The position numbers and the translations under genes are program-made. DNA of 64,000 nucleotides from Thiogranum sp. (GTDB taxonomy: Bacteria > Pseudomonadota > Gammaproteobacteria > DSM-19610). Position 1 is the first letter of the stretch. Every line of letters starts with the position of its first letter. This document shows, piece after piece, positions 44,783 to 54,053 of this stretch. The notes under the pieces were generated by a model that saw only the letters and a list, made by a program, of their open reading frames with translations, was not told the origin of the DNA and ran no database searches. The stretch spans positions 25,388 to 89,387 of the forward strand of contig JASBSN010000042.1 in the NCBI GenBank assembly GCA_030148915.1, read 5' to 3'.

Positions 44783-45418
44783 ATGAACAAACTCAAGCGC
44801 ACCGAGATTTTCACCCGTTTGCGACATGACAATCCGCACCCCGCCACCGAACTTGAATACACCAACCCCTACCAGCTGCTGGTGGCGGTAACCCTCTCGG
44901 CGCAGGCCACCGATGTCGGGGTCAACAAAGCCACTCGGGCGCTGTTTCAAAAAGTGCGCACCCCACAGGCCCTGCTCAAGCTTGGCGAGACCGGGCTGAA
45001 GGAATATATAAAAACCATCGGCCTGTTCAACACCAAGGCCAGGAATCTGATCGCCGCCGCGCGGATTCTGGTCAGGGAGCATAATGGCGAAGTGCCCGCC
45101 ACCCGCGAGGCGCTCGAAGCGCTGCCCGGCGTCGGGCGCAAAACCGCCAATGTCGTTCTCAACACCGCCTTCGGACAGCCGACCATCGCCGTCGATACGC
45201 ATATTTTCCGCGTTTCCAACCGCACCGGTATCGCTCCGGGAAAAAATGTCAACGAAGTCGAGCGCCGGCTGGAGCGCTGCGTACCGGAGGCGTTCAGGCA
45301 AGATGCGCATCACTGGCTGATTCTGCACGGGCGCTATACCTGCGTGGCGCGCACTCCGCGTTGCGGCAGCTGCACCATCGAGGACTTGTGCGAATACCGG
45401 CACAAGACAGAACTCTGA
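44783..45418 (+). CDS. nth: Endonuclease III
   Basis: The 211-residue DNA glycosylase/AP lyase removes oxidised pyrimidines. It has the helix-hairpin-helix LPGVGRKTANVVL with the catalytic Lys, the catalytic Asp in VDTHIFRVSNR, and the C-terminal [4Fe-4S] cluster loop CVARTPRCGSCTIEDLC (C-x6-C-x2-C-x5-C type). Translationally close to rnfE. Confidence 0.97.
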   Translation: MNKLKRTEIFTRLRHDNPHPATELEYTNPYQLLVAVTLSAQATDVGVNKATRALFQKVRTPQALLKLGETGLKEYIKTIGLFNTKARNLIAAARILVREHNGEVPATREALEALPGVGRKTANVVLNTAFGQPTIAVDTHIFRVSNRTGIAPGKNVNEVERRLERCVPEAFRQDAHHWLILHGRYTCVARTPRCGSCTIEDLCEYRHKTEL

Positions 45419-45487
45419 CATACGTCGGCCAGAAACTGCGCTTGCCGTGCCTTCGCCCGTCCGCCTGAGCTTCCACGTGAGCTGAGC

Positions 45488-45928
45488 ATGTTATTCGGAC
45501 AGGATCGCGATCAGCTGCGCAGTCTCTACTGTCGGGCCTGGCGGCGGCACCGTCAGCGCCAGGTATTGGATCCCCTGCAGGCCCAGATCGTCGCCGTGGT
45601 GCAACGCCACCCCGAATACCAGCCGCTGCTGGAGCAACCGCAACAGGCGCTTGGACGGGAATATCCGCCGGAGTTCGGTGAAACCAATCCGTTTCTGCAC
45701 ATGGGCCTGCATCTGGCCGTTCAGGAGCAGATCAGCACCGACCGTCCGGCCGGTATTCGCGATCTCTACCAGCGCCTGGCCTCTACGAGCAGCGACAGGC
45801 ATACGCTCGATCACCGCCTGATGGACTGTCTGGCGGAAATACTCTGGCAGGCGCAGCGTGACGGTCAGCCCCCGGACGAGGAACGTTACTTGCGGTGTAT
45901 CGGAGAAGGAGTGCCGAGCGGGCGCTGA
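45488..45928 (+). CDS. DUF1841 family protein
   Basis: The 146-residue cytoplasmic protein matches DUF1841, with MLFGQDRDQLRSLYCRAWRRH, the GETNPFLHMGLHLAVQEQ motif and a C-terminal PPDEERYLRCI. Function unknown. It often follows nth in gammaproteobacteria. It lies 69 bases after nth. Confidence 0.9.
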   Translation: MLFGQDRDQLRSLYCRAWRRHRQRQVLDPLQAQIVAVVQRHPEYQPLLEQPQQALGREYPPEFGETNPFLHMGLHLAVQEQISTDRPAGIRDLYQRLASTSSDRHTLDHRLMDCLAEILWQAQRDGQPPDEERYLRCIGEGVPSGR

Positions 45929-45985: not shown

Positions 45986-46016
45986 GGAAACTTTACTTCT
46001 CCAGCCCGGTCGTAAA
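45986..46016 (+). promoter_or_regulatory. ECF-sigma-like promoter candidate before hvfA
   Basis: GGAAACTT and CGTAAA are separated by a 17-base spacer, close to the GGAACTT-N16/17-CGTC/A form of ECF promoters. The predicted start is about 90 bases before hvfA and just ahead of the leader hairpin. No mapped start site, so this is motif evidence. Confidence 0.35.
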
Positions 46017-46025
46017 GATTGTTAT

Positions 46026-46067
46026 CCACATCGGAACGGTGGGTTTGATCCCAACCGCTCGATGTGG
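46026..46067 (+). other. Strong hairpin in the hvfA leader
   Basis: CCACATCG pairs exactly with CGATGTGG (8 bp); inside, CGGTGGG pairs with CCCAACCG with one bulge around TTTGAT. No T-run follows, so it is not a terminator. It sits in the predicted untranslated leader 46 bases before the hvfA start and could affect stability or translation. Confidence 0.65.
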
Positions 46068-46112
46068 TATTTGAAGACCAAATTACTAATCAATTCCTTA
46101 GGAGGCTTACCC

Positions 46113-46421
46113 ATGAAAAGTCCTGTAAAATCTTTATCGGTAGCAGTCGGCGCAGCGTTCATCTCCTCACTGGCTGGCGCAGGCGTCGCCACTGCCACCG
46201 AGAATCCCTTCGGCATGACGCAATTATCCAGCGGCTACATGGTAGCGGACAATCACGAAGGTAAATGCGGTGAAGGTAAATGCGGTGGCAACAAAAACCA
46301 AGCCAGTGCCGAGGGCAAAGGTGCTGTGGACGAAGCCCATGAAAATAACGCTGACAGCGATATGAACAAGACCAAAGCCGAAGGCAAATGCGGTGAAGGC
46401 AAGTGCGGCGGCGCTAAGTAA
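46113..46421 (+). CDS. hvfA: HvfA-type copper RiPP precursor with four EGKCG motifs
   Basis: The 102-residue secreted precursor has a Sec signal peptide (about 1-29), a conserved segment (NPFGMTQLSSGYMVAD), then EGKCG at 49-53, 54-58, 90-94 and 95-99, in two pairs. All four Cys in the protein lie in these motifs. A degenerate EGKGA at 67-71 looks like a fifth copy that lost its Cys. In Haemophilus-type HvfA, MNIO enzymes convert the Cys of EGKCG to a thiooxazole that binds copper. RBS is AGGAGG. First of hvfABCX. Confidence 0.9.
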   Translation: MKSPVKSLSVAVGAAFISSLAGAGVATATENPFGMTQLSSGYMVADNHEGKCGEGKCGGNKNQASAEGKGAVDEAHENNADSDMNKTKAEGKCGEGKCGGAK

Positions 46422-46433
46422 TCAGGCCCAGCC

Positions 46434-47294
46434 GTGAGGGTTTCACGCTACCCCGTTCATGGCGCCGGCCTGGGCCTGCGGCGGACCCTGATGGGTCCGC
46501 TGGCGGACCAGCCGCCGGAGCAGGTCGGTTTTTACGAAATCGCGCCCGAGAATTGGATCGGCATCGGCGGGCGCCACGGTAAACAGTTGCGCGCCTTTAC
46601 CGAGCGCTACCCTTTTGTCACCCACGGCCTGTCATTGTCTATCGGCGGACCGGCGCCCCTGGATGAAACCTTCCTGCAGCGCGTGAAGCGTTTCCTCGAC
46701 CAACACGGCATCGCCACCTACACCGAACACCTGAGCTACTGCAGCGACGAGGGTCATCTCTACGATCTGATGCCGATCCCCTTCACCGCCGAGGCGGTAC
46801 ACCACACCGCGGCGCGCATCCGCCGCGCCCAGGAGATACTCGAACGGCGAATCGCCATGGAGAACGTTTCTTATTATGCCGCGCCCGGGCAGGAAATGGC
46901 GGAAATCGATTTCATCCGCGCGGTGTTGGAAGAGGCCGACTGCGACCTGCTGCTGGACGTCAACAATATTTACGTCAACAGCGTCAACCACGGCTACGAC
47001 GCCGAGCAATTTTTGGCCGCGCTGCCCGCCGAGCGGCTCGTATACTGCCATATCGCCGGCCACTACAACGAGGCCGACGACCTGATTGTCGACACTCACG
47101 GTGCCGATGTCATCGAACCGGTCTGGCAATTGCTGGACAGCGCCTATACGCGCTTTGGCGTGGCGCCTACGCTGTTGGAGCGCGACTTCAATGTCCCGCC
47201 GTTGCCACAGCTGCTGAGCGAAGTCGAGCGCATTAACGAGCTGCAGGCCTGCCACGCCGATAAGGGGATTAGCGGGCATGTCGGGCGCGTCTAA
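46434..47294 (+). CDS. hvfB: MNIO-family (DUF692) RiPP-modifying iron oxidase, HvfB-type
   Basis: The 286-residue TIM-barrel enzyme has the DUF692/MNIO metal-ligand motifs: [53 protein letters not shown] and ERDFN. MNIO enzymes carry two or three iron ions and modify cysteines of small precursors. Start is GTG 46434, 12 bases after the precursor stop. It overlaps hvfC by 17 bases, so the two are translated together, as is usual for this pair. Confidence 0.95.
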
Positions 47295-48054
47295 GCCGGG
47301 CTTTATCGACCAACAGTACGCGTTCGCGGCCCACATCCGCGACCCGCGGACCCACCCACCGCCGGCGGGCATCGAGGAGCGGCGCCTGGCCATTTACCGC
47401 GAGCTGTTTTTCAACAATGTCGAAGGCTTCCTCGCCAGCAGTTTTCCGGTGCTCAAGCGTCTGCTGGACGAAGCCCGCTGGCTGGCCCTGGCGCGCGATT
47501 TCTTCGCCCGCCATCATTGCCATTCCCCCCTGTTTCTGGAAATTCCGCGCGAATTTCTCGCCTACCTGGAACAGGAACGCGGCGAGCCGGCCGGTGATCC
47601 ACCGTTCATGCGCGAGTTGGCGCACTACGAATGGGTAGAACTGGCCCTGTCGATCGCCGAAGACACAGCGCTCGGCGAAATCGATCCCCAGGGCGATCTG
47701 CTCGCCGGGCGACCGGTATTGTCGACCCTCGCCTGGCCGCTGGCTTATCGCTACCCGGTGCATAAAATCGGTCCGGACTTCCAGCCTCGTCAGCCCGGTG
47801 AACAATCCGTGTATCTGCTGGTCTATCGAGACAGCGACGACGAAGTCGGCTTTATCGAGTTGAACCCGGTCAGCGCGCGCCTGTTTGCGTTGTTGCAGGA
47901 GCACCCCCAGCGCAGCGGTCTGTCGCTGTTACACCAGATCGCCGCCGAGCTACAGCACCCGCAAGCCGACGTCGTGGTGCGCGGTGGCGGCGAGATTCTC
48001 GAGCAATGGCGACAGCTGGGCATAGTGCGCGGTGTCAGCGCCGAACCCCACTAA
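47278..48054 (+). CDS. hvfC: DUF2063 partner protein, HvfC-type
   Basis: The 258-residue protein has an N-terminal DUF2063 domain: [20 protein letters not shown] and [25 protein letters not shown]-terminal part has a RiPP-recognition-like role in relatives. HvfC binds the precursor and is needed for MNIO activity in characterised systems. Overlap with hvfB supports a fixed pair. Confidence 0.93.
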
Positions 48055-48077
48055 CCATCGCCCAGGGAGTCCCCCGG

Positions 48078-48671
48078 ATGTATCCACTCGTACAATTGCA
48101 ACGCCTGCTCGACCGCACCCGGATTTTTGACTTTCTTGCCCCGCTGGGCCTGCGTCTGTATCTGGTTCCCATTTTCTGGATGGCCGGCACGAAAAAACTG
48201 CAGGACATGGACAGCACCGTCGCCTGGTTCGCTAACCCCGACTGGGGCCTCGGCCTGCCCTTTCCCGAATTGCTCGCCTGGGCCGCGGCGCTGAGCGAGG
48301 CGGGCGGCGCGGTGCTGCTGCTGATCGGTCTGGCGGTACGCTGGATTTCGGTGCCGCTGATGATCACCATGGTCGTGGCCGCGTTCAGCGTCCACTGGCA
48401 GAATGGCTGGCTGGCGATTGCCGAGGGCGGCGGCCCGTTCGCCACCGAGCGCACCCAGGGCGCTATAGAACGCCTGGACCGGGCGAAGGAAATCCTGCAA
48501 ACGCACGGCAACTACGAGTGGCTGACAGAGACCGGCAATTTCGTCGTTCTCAATAATGGCATCGAATTCGCCGTCACGTATTTTCTCATGCTGCTGGTGC
48601 TGTTCTTTGTCGGCGCCGGGCGCTTTTTTAGTATGGACTACTGGGTCCGCAACGCTTTCATGGGCCGATAG
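48078..48671 (+). CDS. hvfX: DoxX-family membrane protein, HvfX-type
   Basis: The 197-residue protein has four hydrophobic helices and the DoxX pattern near PIFWMAGTKKLQDM and AWAAALSEAGGAVLLLIGL. A hydrophilic insert (about 115-150) separates the later helices. DoxX-like proteins commonly close hvfABC operons; they may deal with redox or export but the role is unsettled. Start ATG 48078, 23 bases after the hvfC stop. Confidence 0.9.
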   Translation: MYPLVQLQRLLDRTRIFDFLAPLGLRLYLVPIFWMAGTKKLQDMDSTVAWFANPDWGLGLPFPELLAWAAALSEAGGAVLLLIGLAVRWISVPLMITMVVAAFSVHWQNGWLAIAEGGGPFATERTQGAIERLDRAKEILQTHGNYEWLTETGNFVVLNNGIEFAVTYFLMLLVLFFVGAGRFFSMDYWVRNAFMGR

Positions 48672-48759
48672 CCGAGCATGGTTTCAGGCAGCACCGGGTG
48701 GGCTGTAATACCAGCAAACATACGTCTTTAGGTCGCGCCTGATTCAGTATACTGGAGCC

Positions 48760-51513
48760 ATGACCAGTCAATCCTATACCACCAGCGCGCCGCCACCGGT
48801 TGCAGACTATGCGCTGGCCATCGAGGGCATGACCTGTCAGCACTGCGTGGGCCGCGTCAAAGCGGCCATCAGTGCGGTGGCCGGTGTCGAAGCCGTGGAC
48901 GTGCAGCTCGAGCCCGGCCGCGCCCGGATCAGCGGCGGACTGCCGCATCAGGTGATCGAGGCGATAACCAACGCCGGCTACAGCGCCCGCCCGCTGACGC
49001 AGGAACCCGAGAGTTGCGCACTGCCGAACAGCGCCGAGGCGACACCCGCGCCCACCCCGGTCACCGGGGGCTATCGCGTTGATATCGACGATATGACTTG
49101 CGCGAGCTGTGTGGCCCGGGTCGAAAAAGCCATCCTCGCCGTGGAGGGCGTCGACACCGCTGCGGTCAATCTGGTGGAAGGGGCGGCGTATGTAAGCGGC
49201 GGCGACGTCGAGCGCGTGGTCAATGCGATTGTCGATCAGGGTTACCCGGCACGCGCGGCCACGAATCCTGTCGCCGCCCAGGTGACCCTGGCTTTTGCCG
49301 AGCCGCTGGACAGTCCCCGCCGGCAGCGCGCCGAGGCACTGCTGCGAGATGTCTGGGCAGACACCGATATCACCTGGGAAGAAGCGTCTGTTTGCCGTCT
49401 GACCGGTCGTGCGCACCCGGCCGACTATCTGCTGGCGCTGCGCGAGGACGGCTTCGCCGTCACTTTCGTTGAAAGCGGCGAAGACCCCTACCTGGCGCAG
49501 GAACGCCAGGCGCGGCGGCATATCCGTCAAGCCCTGAGCCGCGCCGCGCTGGCGGCAACGGTCGGTTTCGGGCTGATGGGCGCGATGCTCGCCGGTATTC
49601 TTCCGGGTGTGGACCCGGCTTCGCCGTTAAGCGATATCAGCGGCCGGGGTTTCTGGCTGGGCATGGCCGCCGTGACGCTGCTCACCATGCTCTACAGCGG
49701 CCACCACTACTACACCGGCGCCTGGAAACAGTTCCGCCACGCGCGGGCGAACATGGACACCCTGGTGGCGGTCGGCACGGGCGCGGCCTGGTTGGCCTCG
49801 TTGCTGTTGATTCTGGCTCCGGATTTCGTCCCCGCACCGCAGCGCCACCTGTATCTGGAAACCGCGGTGCTGATCCTCGCTTTTCTGCAGTTCGGGCGCG
49901 CCTTGGAAGTGCGTGCCAAGGCGCAGACCTCGCGCGCCATCGGCGCACTGGTAGCGCTGGCACCGAAAACCGCGCACCTGGTGCGGGGCGCGCACGAGCT
50001 GGATATACCGGTCTCGCTGCTGCAACCCGGGGACTTGTTCCGGGCCCGGCCCGGGGATGCCCTCGCCACCGACGGTGAGGTCGCCGAAGGCGCCTCGAGC
50101 GTCGACGAATCCATGCTCAGCGGCGAGCCACTGGCGGTTACCAAGCAGCCCGGCGATGCGGTTACCGGCGGCACCATCAACCAGTCTGGGGCCCTCCTGG
50201 TACGCGTCACGCACGTCGGTGCGGACACTACGCTGGCAGGTATTATCCAGGCGGTCAAACAGGCGCAGATGAGTAAGCCGCCGATCGGCCGCCTGGTGGA
50301 TCGCATCGCCGGGGTGTTCGTGCCGGTGGTCATGCTGATCGCCCTGATGACTTTCGGCGTCTGGCTGCTGTGGGGGCCGGAACCTCATCTGCCCTACGCC
50401 CTGACCACGGCGATCGCGGTGCTGGTCATCGCCTGCCCTTGCGCGCTGGGCCTGGCAACGCCGATCGCCATTATGGTCGGCATGGGACGCGCCGCCCGCT
50501 TTGGTATTCTGATCCGCAACGGCGACGCCTTACAGACGGCAACCGCCATCACCCACGTGGTAGTCGACAAAACCGGTACCCTCACCGAAGGGCGGCCGCG
50601 GGTGACGGCCATTTACCCTGCCGAGGGACTCGAGGAGCAACAGGCGCTGCTATGGGCGGCCAGTCTGGAGAAGCTCTCGGGGCACCCGCTGGCGCAAGCG
50701 GTGCTGGCCTCGGCACGACAACGCGGCCTCGAACCGCTGCCGGTGGAGGATTTTCATGCCGAAAGCGGTGAGGGCGTCCGGGCAGTGCTGGACGGGCGCG
50801 AGCTCTTCCTCGGCCGGCTGGAATGGCTGGAGGAACTCGGTATCAGTAGCGACGAACTGCTCGCGCGGCAGTCGAGCGCGCTTGCCCGCGGCGGCGTCAC
50901 GCCGGTGTGGCTGGCCGACCGCCAGCGTATTCTGTGCGTCCTCGGTCTGAGCGACCCGGTGCGCCTCGACACGCCCGCCGCTATCGATGCGCTGCGGGCG
51001 CAAGGTATTCACATTGTCATGTGTACCGGCGACCACCCCGATACGGCCCAGGCGGTGGCCTCACAACTGGGTATCGAGGAAGTGCATAGCCGCGTACTGC
51101 CGCAGCATAAAGCCGACGTGGTCGAACAACTCCAGGCACAGGGGCACACCGTGGGCATGGTCGGCGACGGCGTCAACGACGCCCCGGCCCTGGCGCAGGC
51201 ACACGTCGGCTTTGCCATCGGCGCGGGCACCGACGTGGCCATAGAGAGCGCCGACGTTACTCTGGCCAGCGACTCGCTTACCAGTGTCGCCAGCGCCATT
51301 GCGCTGTCGCGCGCCACCTTGCGCAACATCCGCCAAAACCTGTTTGGCGCCTTTATCTACAATGTCATCGGCATACCGCTGGCAGCCGGTGTGCTCTACC
51401 CCTTTAGCGGCTGGCTGCTGAGCCCGGTTTTCGCCAGTCTTGCCATGGCGCTGTCGTCGGTGACGGTGGTCACGAACGCCAATCGTTTGCGGCTGTTCAA
51501 ACCCGTGGAGTAA
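48760..51513 (+). CDS. copA: Copper-exporting P1B-type ATPase with two metal-binding domains and a degenerate third
   Basis: The 917-residue ATPase has HMA domains with MTCQHC (Cys 26 and 29) and MTCASC (Cys 114 and 117), then a third HMA-like stretch (about 170-240) with no CxxC. The core has the CPC site in IACPCALGLATP, the phosphorylation motif DKTGTLTEG, TGE-equivalent LSGEPL, and the HP motif in SGHPLAQ. CPC plus N-terminal HMA fits Cu(I) export. 89 bases after hvfX and 5 bases before a CopZ-like gene. Confidence 0.95.
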   Translation: MTSQSYTTSAPPPVADYALAIEGMTCQHCVGRVKAAISAVAGVEAVDVQLEPGRARISGGLPHQVIEAITNAGYSARPLTQEPESCALPNSAEATPAPTPVTGGYRVDIDDMTCASCVARVEKAILAVEGVDTAAVNLVEGAAYVSGGDVERVVNAIVDQGYPARAATNPVAAQVTLAFAEPLDSPRRQRAEALLRDVWADTDITWEEASVCRLTGRAHPADYLLALREDGFAVTFVESGEDPYLAQERQARRHIRQALSRAALAATVGFGLMGAMLAGILPGVDPASPLSDISGRGFWLGMAAVTLLTMLYSGHHYYTGAWKQFRHARANMDTLVAVGTGAAWLASLLLILAPDFVPAPQRHLYLETAVLILAFLQFGRALEVRAKAQTSRAIGALVALAPKTAHLVRGAHELDIPVSLLQPGDLFRARPGDALATDGEVAEGASSVDESMLSGEPLAVTKQPGDAVTGGTINQSGALLVRVTHVGADTTLAGIIQAVKQAQMSKPPIGRLVDRIAGVFVPVVMLIALMTFGVWLLWGPEPHLPYALTTAIAVLVIACPCALGLATPIAIMVGMGRAARFGILIRNGDALQTATAITHVVVDKTGTLTEGRPRVTAIYPAEGLEEQQALLWAASLEKLSGHPLAQAVLASARQRGLEPLPVEDFHAESGEGVRAVLDGRELFLGRLEWLEELGISSDELLARQSSALARGGVTPVWLADRQRILCVLGLSDPVRLDTPAAIDALRAQGIHIVMCTGDHPDTAQAVASQLGIEEVHSRVLPQHKADVVEQLQAQGHTVGMVGDGVNDAPALAQAHVGFAIGAGTDVAIESADVTLASDSLTSVASAIALSRATLRNIRQNLFGAFIYNVIGIPLAAGVLYPFSGWLLSPVFASLAMALSSVTVVTNANRLRLFKPVE

Positions 51514-51518
51514 AAATC

Positions 51519-51728
51519 ATGAGTAATAAGGTAACGCTGAACATCGAAGGCATGACCTGCCAACATTGTGTGGCGGCGGTTGGCAAAGCGCTGGCGGCGG
51601 TCGACGGGGTCGATGAGGTGATTGAAGTCTCGTTGCAGAAAAACAGCGCGACGGTGCGCGGTGACGCCGCGATCCCGGCGCTGATCAGCGCGGTGCAGCA
51701 GAGCGGCTATACGGCCACTGTCGGTTAA
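51519..51728 (+). CDS. copZ: CopZ-like copper chaperone
   Basis: The 69-residue HMA protein has MTCQHC and the beta-alpha-beta layout of CopZ/Atx1. Its MTCQHC site matches that of HMA1 of the adjacent CopA, as expected for transfer between them. It starts 5 bases after copA. The stop overlaps the stop of the convergent outer-membrane gene (TTAA). Confidence 0.94.
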   Translation: MSNKVTLNIEGMTCQHCVAAVGKALAAVDGVDEVIEVSLQKNSATVRGDAAIPALISAVQQSGYTATVG

Positions 51729-52933
51729 AAATAGCGCGACAGGCGCAGCGTGAAGTGACTGTCATCGCGAAATACCGCGATGAAGTCCTCGCCGCCGTAG
51801 CCGGGGAACCAGCGGCTTTCCAGCGCCAGGCTCCAATGATTGCTCAGACGCCGCTCGGCCTCGATTGACAGTTGCATGGCGCGGCTGTCGCGGTCTACGA
51901 TCACGCCGGCCAGCAGGGTGGTCGTCTGCACATCGTTTAAGCTCAGGCGGGCACCGAAAAACAGATCGTCGTCAAGCAGCACCGGGGGTTGCTCGGCGGG
52001 ATTATTACTGCGGGCATCGCGCGAATACTCCAGCAGCAGACCCAGATCAACGTCAGAATCCAGTATTTGGTACAGCGTGTATTCGAAACCCCCAACCGCC
52101 GCCGCATAGTGATCACCGTGCTGGGCGCGCCACAGCGCCTCAAATTTCCACAACCAGCTGCCGCGGGTATACTGGATGTCCGTGCCGACTTGTCGCATCA
52201 GGTCATAGAAGGGCACCAGCCGGTCGCCGCCGGCGTCGACGAGCAAGCGCGGCTCCCGCGCGGTGCCGTCAAAATAATAGATACCGAAATCCCAGTCGCC
52301 CAAATAATGTGAGTAACGCAACGCCGTGTCGAGATGCCGCTGCCGGTCGCCGGACTGGTACTGCGCATCGCCGTCAGTGACCAGCGGAAAACGCAGGCGT
52401 CCGTGGCGCCCGGGAAAGGTGCGCTCGCGAAACCCGGGCAACAGGTAAACATCCAGCGTCCCCCAGTCGCGCTGCGCAGACAGGCGGAGCATCGGCTGAC
52501 CCAGTTTATCCTCACCGTCCAGATCCTCGACGAAGTCGGTCTGATTGATGACATCCACCAGGTGATTCGACTCGGCCACCCCCCAAAATACCCGGTCGAG
52601 GCCGACCAGCACTTCCCAGTCGCCACTTTGTCGTCGCCAGTAGGCTTCGCGGATGTCGGCATGCGTACGCCGAGCGTCCTGACTGTCCACATGGAGGTAG
52701 GGGATAAAGCTGTACTGATCGTCGCCTGCGCCGCTGCTCCAGCTGAACTCCGGTTGCACCAGCAGCGAACTCTGCAGCGTCTCGAACTGATCGGCATAGC
52801 GGCCGTCCTGGAAAAAGACGCGTGCCTCGGCAGCGACAACACCGGACAACCGGTAGTCGGCCAGGCCAACCGACGGCAGGCAGCCTATCGCGCAGATAAA
52901 CATACCCGTTTTCCAGTCTCCTCTAGTCGACAT
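51725..52933 (-). CDS. Outer-membrane beta-barrel protein
   Basis: The 402-residue protein has a signal peptide and many amphipathic strands with aromatic girdles, ending in SHFTLRLSRYF, the C-terminal Phe of outer-membrane proteins. It has no recognised family domain. ATG 52933 overlaps the MFS stop and gives a basic n-region; ATG 52903 is an alternative. It is encoded right after an MFS gene on the same strand, so they may act together, but the substrate is unknown. Confidence 0.8.
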   Translation of the reverse strand: MSTRGDWKTGMFICAIGCLPSVGLADYRLSGVVAAEARVFFQDGRYADQFETLQSSLLVQPEFSWSSGAGDDQYSFIPYLHVDSQDARRTHADIREAYWRRQSGDWEVLVGLDRVFWGVAESNHLVDVINQTDFVEDLDGEDKLGQPMLRLSAQRDWGTLDVYLLPGFRERTFPGRHGRLRFPLVTDGDAQYQSGDRQRHLDTALRYSHYLGDWDFGIYYFDGTAREPRLLVDAGGDRLVPFYDLMRQVGTDIQYTRGSWLWKFEALWRAQHGDHYAAAVGGFEYTLYQILDSDVDLGLLLEYSRDARSNNPAEQPPVLLDDDLFFGARLSLNDVQTTTLLAGVIVDRDSRAMQLSIEAERRLSNHWSLALESRWFPGYGGEDFIAVFRDDSHFTLRLSRYF

Positions 52934-54053
52934 CCCGAATACCCCGCCAGGCAACCGCGAACGCCAGCCCCGCGCTCAGCGCCGCCGCCAGATACATCCA
53001 CTGGGAACCCACGCCCTCCCAGAGATAACCCGCGGCAACGCTGCCCATGGCGCCCCCCGCGCCGAAGCTGACGCTGCTGTAGAGTGCCTGCCCGCGCCCC
53101 TGAAGCCGCCCGGGGAACAAGCGGTGGAACATGTGAATGGAGACGGCATGATACAGGCCAAAACTGGCCGCGTGCAGGGTTTGCGCCAGGAGCATCGCAC
53201 CCAGACTATCGACCAGCAGCGCCACCAGTGCCCAACGCAACGCCGTCAGCGCGGTGGCCGTCAGCAACAGCCGGCGCGCGCCGTAGCGCGGCAGCCAGCG
53301 ATGCATATTCAGAAAGACGCCGATTTCCGCCACTACACCCAGCGCCCAGAGCTGACCGATCAGCGTTTCGCTGTAGCCGTGAGCGGAGAGGTAGATCGTG
53401 TAAAAGGTGTAATAGGGGCCGTGGCTGGCTTGAACCAGAAAACACACCAGCAACAGCGCTATCACCGCTGGTTGACGCAATACCGCGCCGAGCGGCGGAT
53501 GAGCTTGCCCGGCAGGCGTCTTGGATTTTTCCGGCACCCCCAGACTCGTCAGCCAGATAGCGGCAAATAACCCGGTCAGTATCAACGGCAGAACGCCGGT
53601 GCCGAATTGCTCGAACAGCGGCCCCAGCGACGCCACCGTGAGAATAAAACCAATCGAACCCCAGAGACGGATGGTGCTGTAGCGATGGGTGTCTGCGGCG
53701 AGGTGATTGAGTGTGTTGACCTCGAACTGCGGTAGCGCCGCGTTCCAGAAAAAACTGAAACCCGTCATCACCAGTGCCATGGCCCAATAGCCCTGTACGG
53801 CAAATACAGCGCTGAATACCAGCAACGACATCAGACAGGCGGTGCGCACGATTTTCATGCTCCGCCCGGTGTGATCGGCGATCCAGCCCCAGATATTCGG
53901 CGCCACAATTTTGGTGGCCATGAGAATCGCCACCAGTTCGCCGATTTCCACCAGGCTGAAACCCAGCGACTGCAGGTACAGGCCCCAATAAGGCATCAGC
54001 GCGCCCAGCGAGGCGAAATAAAAGAAATAGAATCCGGACAGCCGCCAGTACAT
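52923..54053 (-). CDS. MFS transporter, PPP/HcaT-like
   Basis: The 376-residue protein has 12 predicted hydrophobic segments and resembles the phenylpropionate permease (HcaT-like) MFS branch, opening with YWRLSGFYFFYFASLGALMPYWGLYL. Substrate not predictable. It is translationally coupled to the barrel gene and is 83 bases downstream of aroC on the same strand. Confidence 0.9.
   Translation of the reverse strand: MYWRLSGFYFFYFASLGALMPYWGLYLQSLGFSLVEIGELVAILMATKIVAPNIWGWIADHTGRSMKIVRTACLMSLLVFSAVFAVQGYWAMALVMTGFSFFWNAALPQFEVNTLNHLAADTHRYSTIRLWGSIGFILTVASLGPLFEQFGTGVLPLILTGLFAAIWLTSLGVPEKSKTPAGQAHPPLGAVLRQPAVIALLLVCFLVQASHGPYYTFYTIYLSAHGYSETLIGQLWALGVVAEIGVFLNMHRWLPRYGARRLLLTATALTALRWALVALLVDSLGAMLLAQTLHAASFGLYHAVSIHMFHRLFPGRLQGRGQALYSSVSFGAGGAMGSVAAGYLWEGVGSQWMYLAAALSAGLAFAVAWRGIRDVD

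Follow-up and report, generated by a model that had tools for sequence, protein, structure and literature searches.

Homologous peptides with EGKCG motifs carry 5-thiooxazoles that are formed by an MNIO enzyme together with a DUF2063 partner protein; these peptides bind up to four copper atoms and have been given the class name captophorins (PMC13097082). Among them is oxazolin, the product of hvfABCX in Haemophilus influenzae, whose structure was revised from an oxazolone/thioamide to a 5-thiooxazole (PMC13097082), and thiooxazole is also named by a 2026 preprint (PMC13419390). Therefore, the term thiooxazole, which the first-pass annotation had used for the locus described here, is right by the current literature. 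The 5-thiooxazole and copper binding were likewise shown for fontiphorin from Fontimonas thermophila and gonophorin from Neisseria gonorrhoeae (PMC13097082). The bulbicupramide (mmr) cluster of Microbulbifer shares the MNIO/DUF2063 pair and the EGKCG repeats, has five to eight cysteines and yields a product that binds Cu(I); under laboratory conditions the cluster is not expressed, nor could it be credited with protection against copper (PMC12538549). The bufferins Buf1 and Buf2 of Caulobacter and the gig operon of Cupriavidus, which are linked to metal stress, also comprise an MNIO, a DUF2063 protein, a DoxX protein and a precursor with a signal peptide, although their precursor families differ from ours. 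The Caulobacter bufferins contain thiooxazole and are under sigma-F control.

The locus that we analyzed lies in a window of 64,000 nucleotides, by which we mean the whole stretch of DNA under study. Like hvfABCX of H. influenzae (PMC13097082; PMC13419390), it combines the same enzyme families, as recognized by curated models, with a precursor bearing a putative signal peptide and pairs of EGKCG, and a DoxX-like HvfX. Unlike the H. influenzae system, it has four EGKCG motifs plus a decayed fifth, its precursor falls short of the full-length HvfA equivalog model, and copA-copZ follows directly downstream. It shares the MNIO and DUF2063 partner with fontiphorin and gonophorin, and the EGKCG repeats with fontiphorin, whereas fontiphorin holds seven thiooxazoles, and the paper on these two peptides mentions no ATPase or CopA (PMC13097082). 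The mmr cluster is also without copA, and its flanking genes were judged unrelated (PMC12538549). A P1B-1 ATPase with a CopZ chaperone is typical of copA-copZ export operons, but here the pair sits behind a captophorin operon and no CueR-type operator was found in the gap. Literature text searches returned no paper that treats HvfA together with CopA. New here are the family-restricted copA-copZ neighbor pair, the conserved hvfA promoter, the decay of one motif to EGKGA, and a candidate −10 box of copA.

Gene content and class of the locus

Six intact, close-packed genes on the plus strand make up the locus in the window, an arrangement already described in the first-pass annotation, with identities on which Pfam and NCBIfam agree:

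46113–46421, plus strand: hvfA, predicted secreted RiPP precursor of 102 amino acids with four EGKCG motifs and an N-terminal signal-like region
46311–46325, plus strand: EGKGA, decayed fifth motif and putative remnant of a lost middle cassette (from homologue comparison)
46434–47294, plus strand: hvfB, MNIO (DUF692, MbnB_TglH_ChrH) maturase with a GTG start
47278–48054, plus strand: hvfC, DUF2063/NGO1945-type partner protein
48078–48671, plus strand: hvfX, DoxX-like membrane protein
48760–51513, plus strand: copA, Cu(I)-exporting P1B-1 ATPase with two N-terminal metal-binding domains
51519–51728, plus strand: copZ, cytoplasmic copper chaperone with MTCQHC

Two details of the earlier description are corrected. 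The spacing between hvfX and copA, given as 89 bases, counts 88 (48672–48759), and the start of hvfA at 46026 was placed too early, as the ATG at 46113 stands behind a perfect AGGAGG and homologous precursors begin there. hvfB and hvfC overlap by 17 bases. On the minus strand, a gene for 409 amino acids (51725–52954) converges on copZ with overlapping stop codons; it has no match in Pfam or NCBIfam and is kept downstream of hvf across the family, whether copA is present or absent.

The identity of the genes is supported because HvfB, HvfC, HvfX, CopA (as a member of the copper-translocating subfamily) and CopZ all pass curated models. HvfB (PF05114, 354 bits) scores 446 bits with NF003818 (cut-off 360) and aligns to the MNIO structure PDB 3bww over nearly its whole length, including the LLERDFN stretch (E 1.9e-74), while HvfC (PF09836 and PF22106) reaches 340 bits with NF050145 (cut-off 142) and HvfX (PF07681) 238 bits with NF050144 (cut-off 80). 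CopA passes TIGR01511 (593.7 bits, cut-off 397), has two MTCxxC domains, the CPC, DKTGT, GHP and GDGVND motifs and the YN...MALSS residues of Cu(I) P1B-1 pumps, and stays below the E. coli-type CopA equivalog NF007952 (800 vs. 1316); CopZ barely passes its equivalog NF047957 (85.1 bits, cut-off 85). The NCBIfam identifications of HvfB, HvfC and HvfX uphold the earlier hvfABCX assignment, and the reading as a thiooxazole peptide is supported at the level of homologues by the 5-thiooxazole shown on EGKCG peptides (PMC13097082). Two other classes were considered and rejected: for the bufferins (BufAB), HvfB remains below the bufferin MNIO (BufB) model (268.7 vs. 310 bits) and the precursor has no DUF2282 or BufA2 match in Pfam or NCBIfam; for the methanobactins, the score with the MbnB equivalog TIGR04159 is 41.8 vs. 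325 bits.

In HvfA, EGKCG occurs at residues 49, 54, 90, and 95, in agreement with the four motifs counted previously, and these contain all four cysteines of the protein. No other reading frame in the window contains the motif, and not one of 20000 shuffled precursors had even two copies. The N-terminus, judged by eye only, shows a basic start, a hydrophobic stretch and a small-residue end. The precursor passes the KCGExKCG_twice repeat-domain model NF050137 of NCBIfam (38.5 bits, cut-off 19.5) and fails the full-length HvfA equivalog NF050188 (42.5 bits, cut-off 95); we therefore assign it to the broader EGKCG/HvfA family without calling it an HvfA equivalog. Homologous precursors are very variable in length and repeat number. 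Taken together, these models support placing the locus in the EGKCG captophorin (HvfA/oxazolin, Buf_EGKCG) class, with its precursor as a further member.

The suggestion that EGKGA is a decayed fifth motif is sustained by homologues, which hold EGKCG-type cassettes at that position, either EGKCGEGKCG (L007/L124) or EGKGGEGKCG (L006/L121), whereas in the window EGKGA is followed by unrelated sequence. This comparison points to a genuine decay of a cassette and not to chance. There are six EGKCG-type cysteines in L124, five in L121 and four in the window, and if the L124 form is ancestral, the window lineage would have lost two of six modifiable cysteines and kept four. In the precursors of two further loci (L017 and L061), EF-hand-like stretches (DKDGDGSVSRAEF; DADKDGKVTKEEF) lie between the EGKCG repeats; EGKCG/EF-hand fusions have been noted before (PMC12452194).

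The same genome has other MNIO loci, all on the minus strand of their contigs. A second hvf locus (L139; G000:C118, 2199–5086) comprises an ECF sigma factor, a zinc-finger anti-sigma factor, hvfA2 with three KCG motifs, hvfB2 and hvfC2, and hvfB2 has a frame disruption that is either a real break or an assembly error. There are two bufferin loci. One (L137; G000:C80, 6752–12352), which from its genes we take to be of the mercury type, encodes a MerC-BufA2 fusion (237 amino acids), a bufferin MNIO and a DUF2063-like partner. Two pyridine-nucleotide disulphide oxidoreductases are encoded beside them, and one of these carries a heavy-metal domain; MerC/Buf2 fusions are known from the literature (PMC12452194). 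The other (L138; G000:C27, 7999–9973), with a BufA2 precursor, a BufB-type MNIO and a DUF2063-like partner, is the fourth MNIO locus of the genome.

Candidate promoters of hvfA and copA

Conservation among relatives indicates two candidate promoters within the window:

45986–46011, plus strand: candidate ECF-sigma promoter of the hvf operon, GGAAACTTT-N13-GGTC (GAAACTT-N15-GTC), from conservation
48725–48753, plus strand: candidate copA promoter with a weak −35 TCTTTA, 17 nt and −10 TATACT, from sub-lineage conservation

The pattern GAAACTT-N15-GTC was present in 21 of the 69 distinct gammaproteobacterial hvfA upstream regions, a count inflated by the relatedness of the sequences, compared with a mean of 0.007 and a maximum of 1 in 300 first-order shuffles. 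None of the 69 regions had the two elements at spacers of 11–14 or 16–19, and several genera that do not belong to the window's family share the fixed N15 spacing. The geometry resembles that of sigma-E type ECF promoters (GGAACTT-N15-GTC). MNIO operons of Caulobacter are also under ECF sigma control, with a different motif, GTAACC-N16-CGAA, recognized by sigma-F. The window site is the sole exact copy of the motif in the 3.2 Mb genome; two one-mismatch matches were rejected as further copies, since they lie in unconvincing places and a backward control gave more. The motif does not precede the genes of the second hvf locus, though an ECF sigma gene adjoins them. On this sequence evidence, we regard the hvf operon as starting at a candidate ECF-type promoter.

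The TATACT box stands exactly 6 nt before the ATG of copA in all four sub-lineage members (the window, L121, L122, and L124) and belongs to the longest invariant run of the hvfX-copA gap, so that the copA message would be leaderless or nearly so. A sigma-70 scan did not report this box, which scores below threshold because of the poor −35. In the copA gap there is no CueR-type dyad (the best site is mismatched at 7 of 14 positions). Rfam gave no match; the genome encodes no CsoR-family protein and, for CueR, only MerR relatives below the cut-off. In two other family members, copA follows hvfX at 44 bases (L120) or about 0 bases (L130), which makes read-through more likely there. In the sub-lineage of the window, transcription of copA probably begins at a start of its own, and some may also run through from hvfX. 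The first-pass annotation suggested co-regulation of the peptide and CopA, and this part of its interpretation, unlike the hvfABCX/thiooxazole assignment, is not established, as hvfA and copA have separate candidate promoters; co-regulation is plausible, and copA may be transcribed by read-through, from a separate promoter or by both routes.

Occurrence of copA-copZ behind hvfX

In a survey of 80 loci (one genome per species), nth, the endonuclease III gene, commonly precedes the hvf genes across the gammaproteobacteria, in many cases separated from them by a DUF1841 gene. The window has nth and the DUF1841 gene upstream of hvf (44783–45928, plus strand), and this neighborhood is conserved over the gammaproteobacteria, for nth including the Methylococcales. 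The ancestral context is nth-(DUF1841)-hvf, without copA. A same-strand copA-copZ pair directly downstream was present in only 3 of the 80 loci (L006, L007, and L009), which are contigs of members of the window's own family (G015, G016, and G003). None of 60 loci drawn over the class had the pair behind hvfX, with one distant, opposite-strand P-type ATPase match, although some of these stretches are short downstream and an occasional linked case may escape.

Within the family, 17 hvfX loci were taken (family- and order-level sampling gave the same 20 genomes), and two were uninformative because their contigs end too soon (L123 and L132). Counting the window and leaving out the paralogous locus L131, copA-copZ follows hvfX in 10 of the 15 informative loci (the window, L120, L121, L122, L124, L127, L128, L129, L130, and L134) and is missing from five (L125, L126, L133, L135, and L136). 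CopA identity among the linked loci is 56–74%; G004, a complete genome, lacks a close CopA orthologue altogether (best 47%). In a tree of HvfB+HvfC+HvfX, the linked loci fall on several branches and three changes are needed. This fits a single gain in the family followed by losses; the pair may also have been gained repeatedly, the deep forks of the tree being open. As the linkage is confined to one bacterial family among the sampled genomes, it is no general feature of hvf systems.

Proposed role and alternatives

We consider it very probable that the hvfABCX genes here are functional, that they belong to the EGKCG captophorin class, and that a copper exporter with its chaperone was added to them in one bacterial family. 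By analogy with homologues, HvfB, guided by HvfC, would oxidize the four EGKCG cysteines to 5-thiooxazoles before export, and HvfA would then leave via Sec and hold excess Cu(I) in the periplasm, assisted in some way by HvfX. As is established for CopA and CopZ elsewhere, CopZ would pass cytoplasmic Cu(I) to CopA, which would pump it into the same compartment as HvfA, so that the locus would handle cytoplasmic as well as periplasmic copper, and copper might be transferred from CopA to HvfA. This explanation is favored by the gammaproteobacteria-wide gene order, the copA-copZ linkage in the family and the conserved ECF-type promoter; the missed NF050188 cut-off, the Microbulbifer mmr cluster without a copper-protective role and the absence of copA from five family loci speak against it. 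A stronger version, in which an envelope-stress ECF sigma factor drives the peptide, a separate and possibly leaderless promoter drives CopA-CopZ, and pumped copper goes straight to the peptide as a lineage-specific two-compartment module, seems to us rather unlikely.

Other readings differ in what they dispute. That copA-copZ is a passive neighbor with its own promoter and regulator, and without functional coupling to the peptide, is a serious possibility, though we would not bet on it, and it would leave the identity of the hvf genes untouched. It accords with an ancestral locus without copA, with the conserved TATACT box in four relatives and with the five informative relatives lacking copA at that place; however, peptide and pump both act on copper, the linkage persists in two thirds of the informative family loci (10 of 15) despite the divergence of CopA, and copA lies 44 or about 0 bases behind hvfX in L120 and L130. 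It is improbable that the peptide serves copper acquisition or cuproenzyme delivery in the manner of methanobactin, fed by CopA, instead of detoxification. Some P1B-1 pumps, such as CtpA1 and RdxI in C. metallidurans, do provide copper for periplasmic cuproproteins, and mmr gave no copper-protection phenotype; yet expression of Sec-exported EGKCG/bufferin systems rises under excess copper, gold or oxidative stress, no uptake receptor adjoining the locus was recognized by Pfam or NCBIfam, and the pairing of CopA with CopZ is the usual export layout. Finally, HvfA could be degenerating in this lineage, with the loss of the middle cassette marking a peptide on its way out, as the fall from six to five to four cysteines and the disrupted second hvf locus of the genome might suggest. 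We hold this to be very improbable, given that nothing is broken in the four remaining motifs, the enzyme genes or the promoter and that other family members with four or five motifs, such as L134 and L128, have intact operons.

The role of EGKCG thiooxazole peptides is debated, with detoxification favored, yet one genus shows no phenotype. The retention of an exporter and its chaperone behind the peptide genes in most members of the family provides independent genomic support for copper detoxification. The conserved ECF-type promoter offers a testable lead on the switch of many gammaproteobacterial hvf operons, and the copA-linked lineage lends itself to a natural test of whether copper leaving through the pump reaches the peptide.
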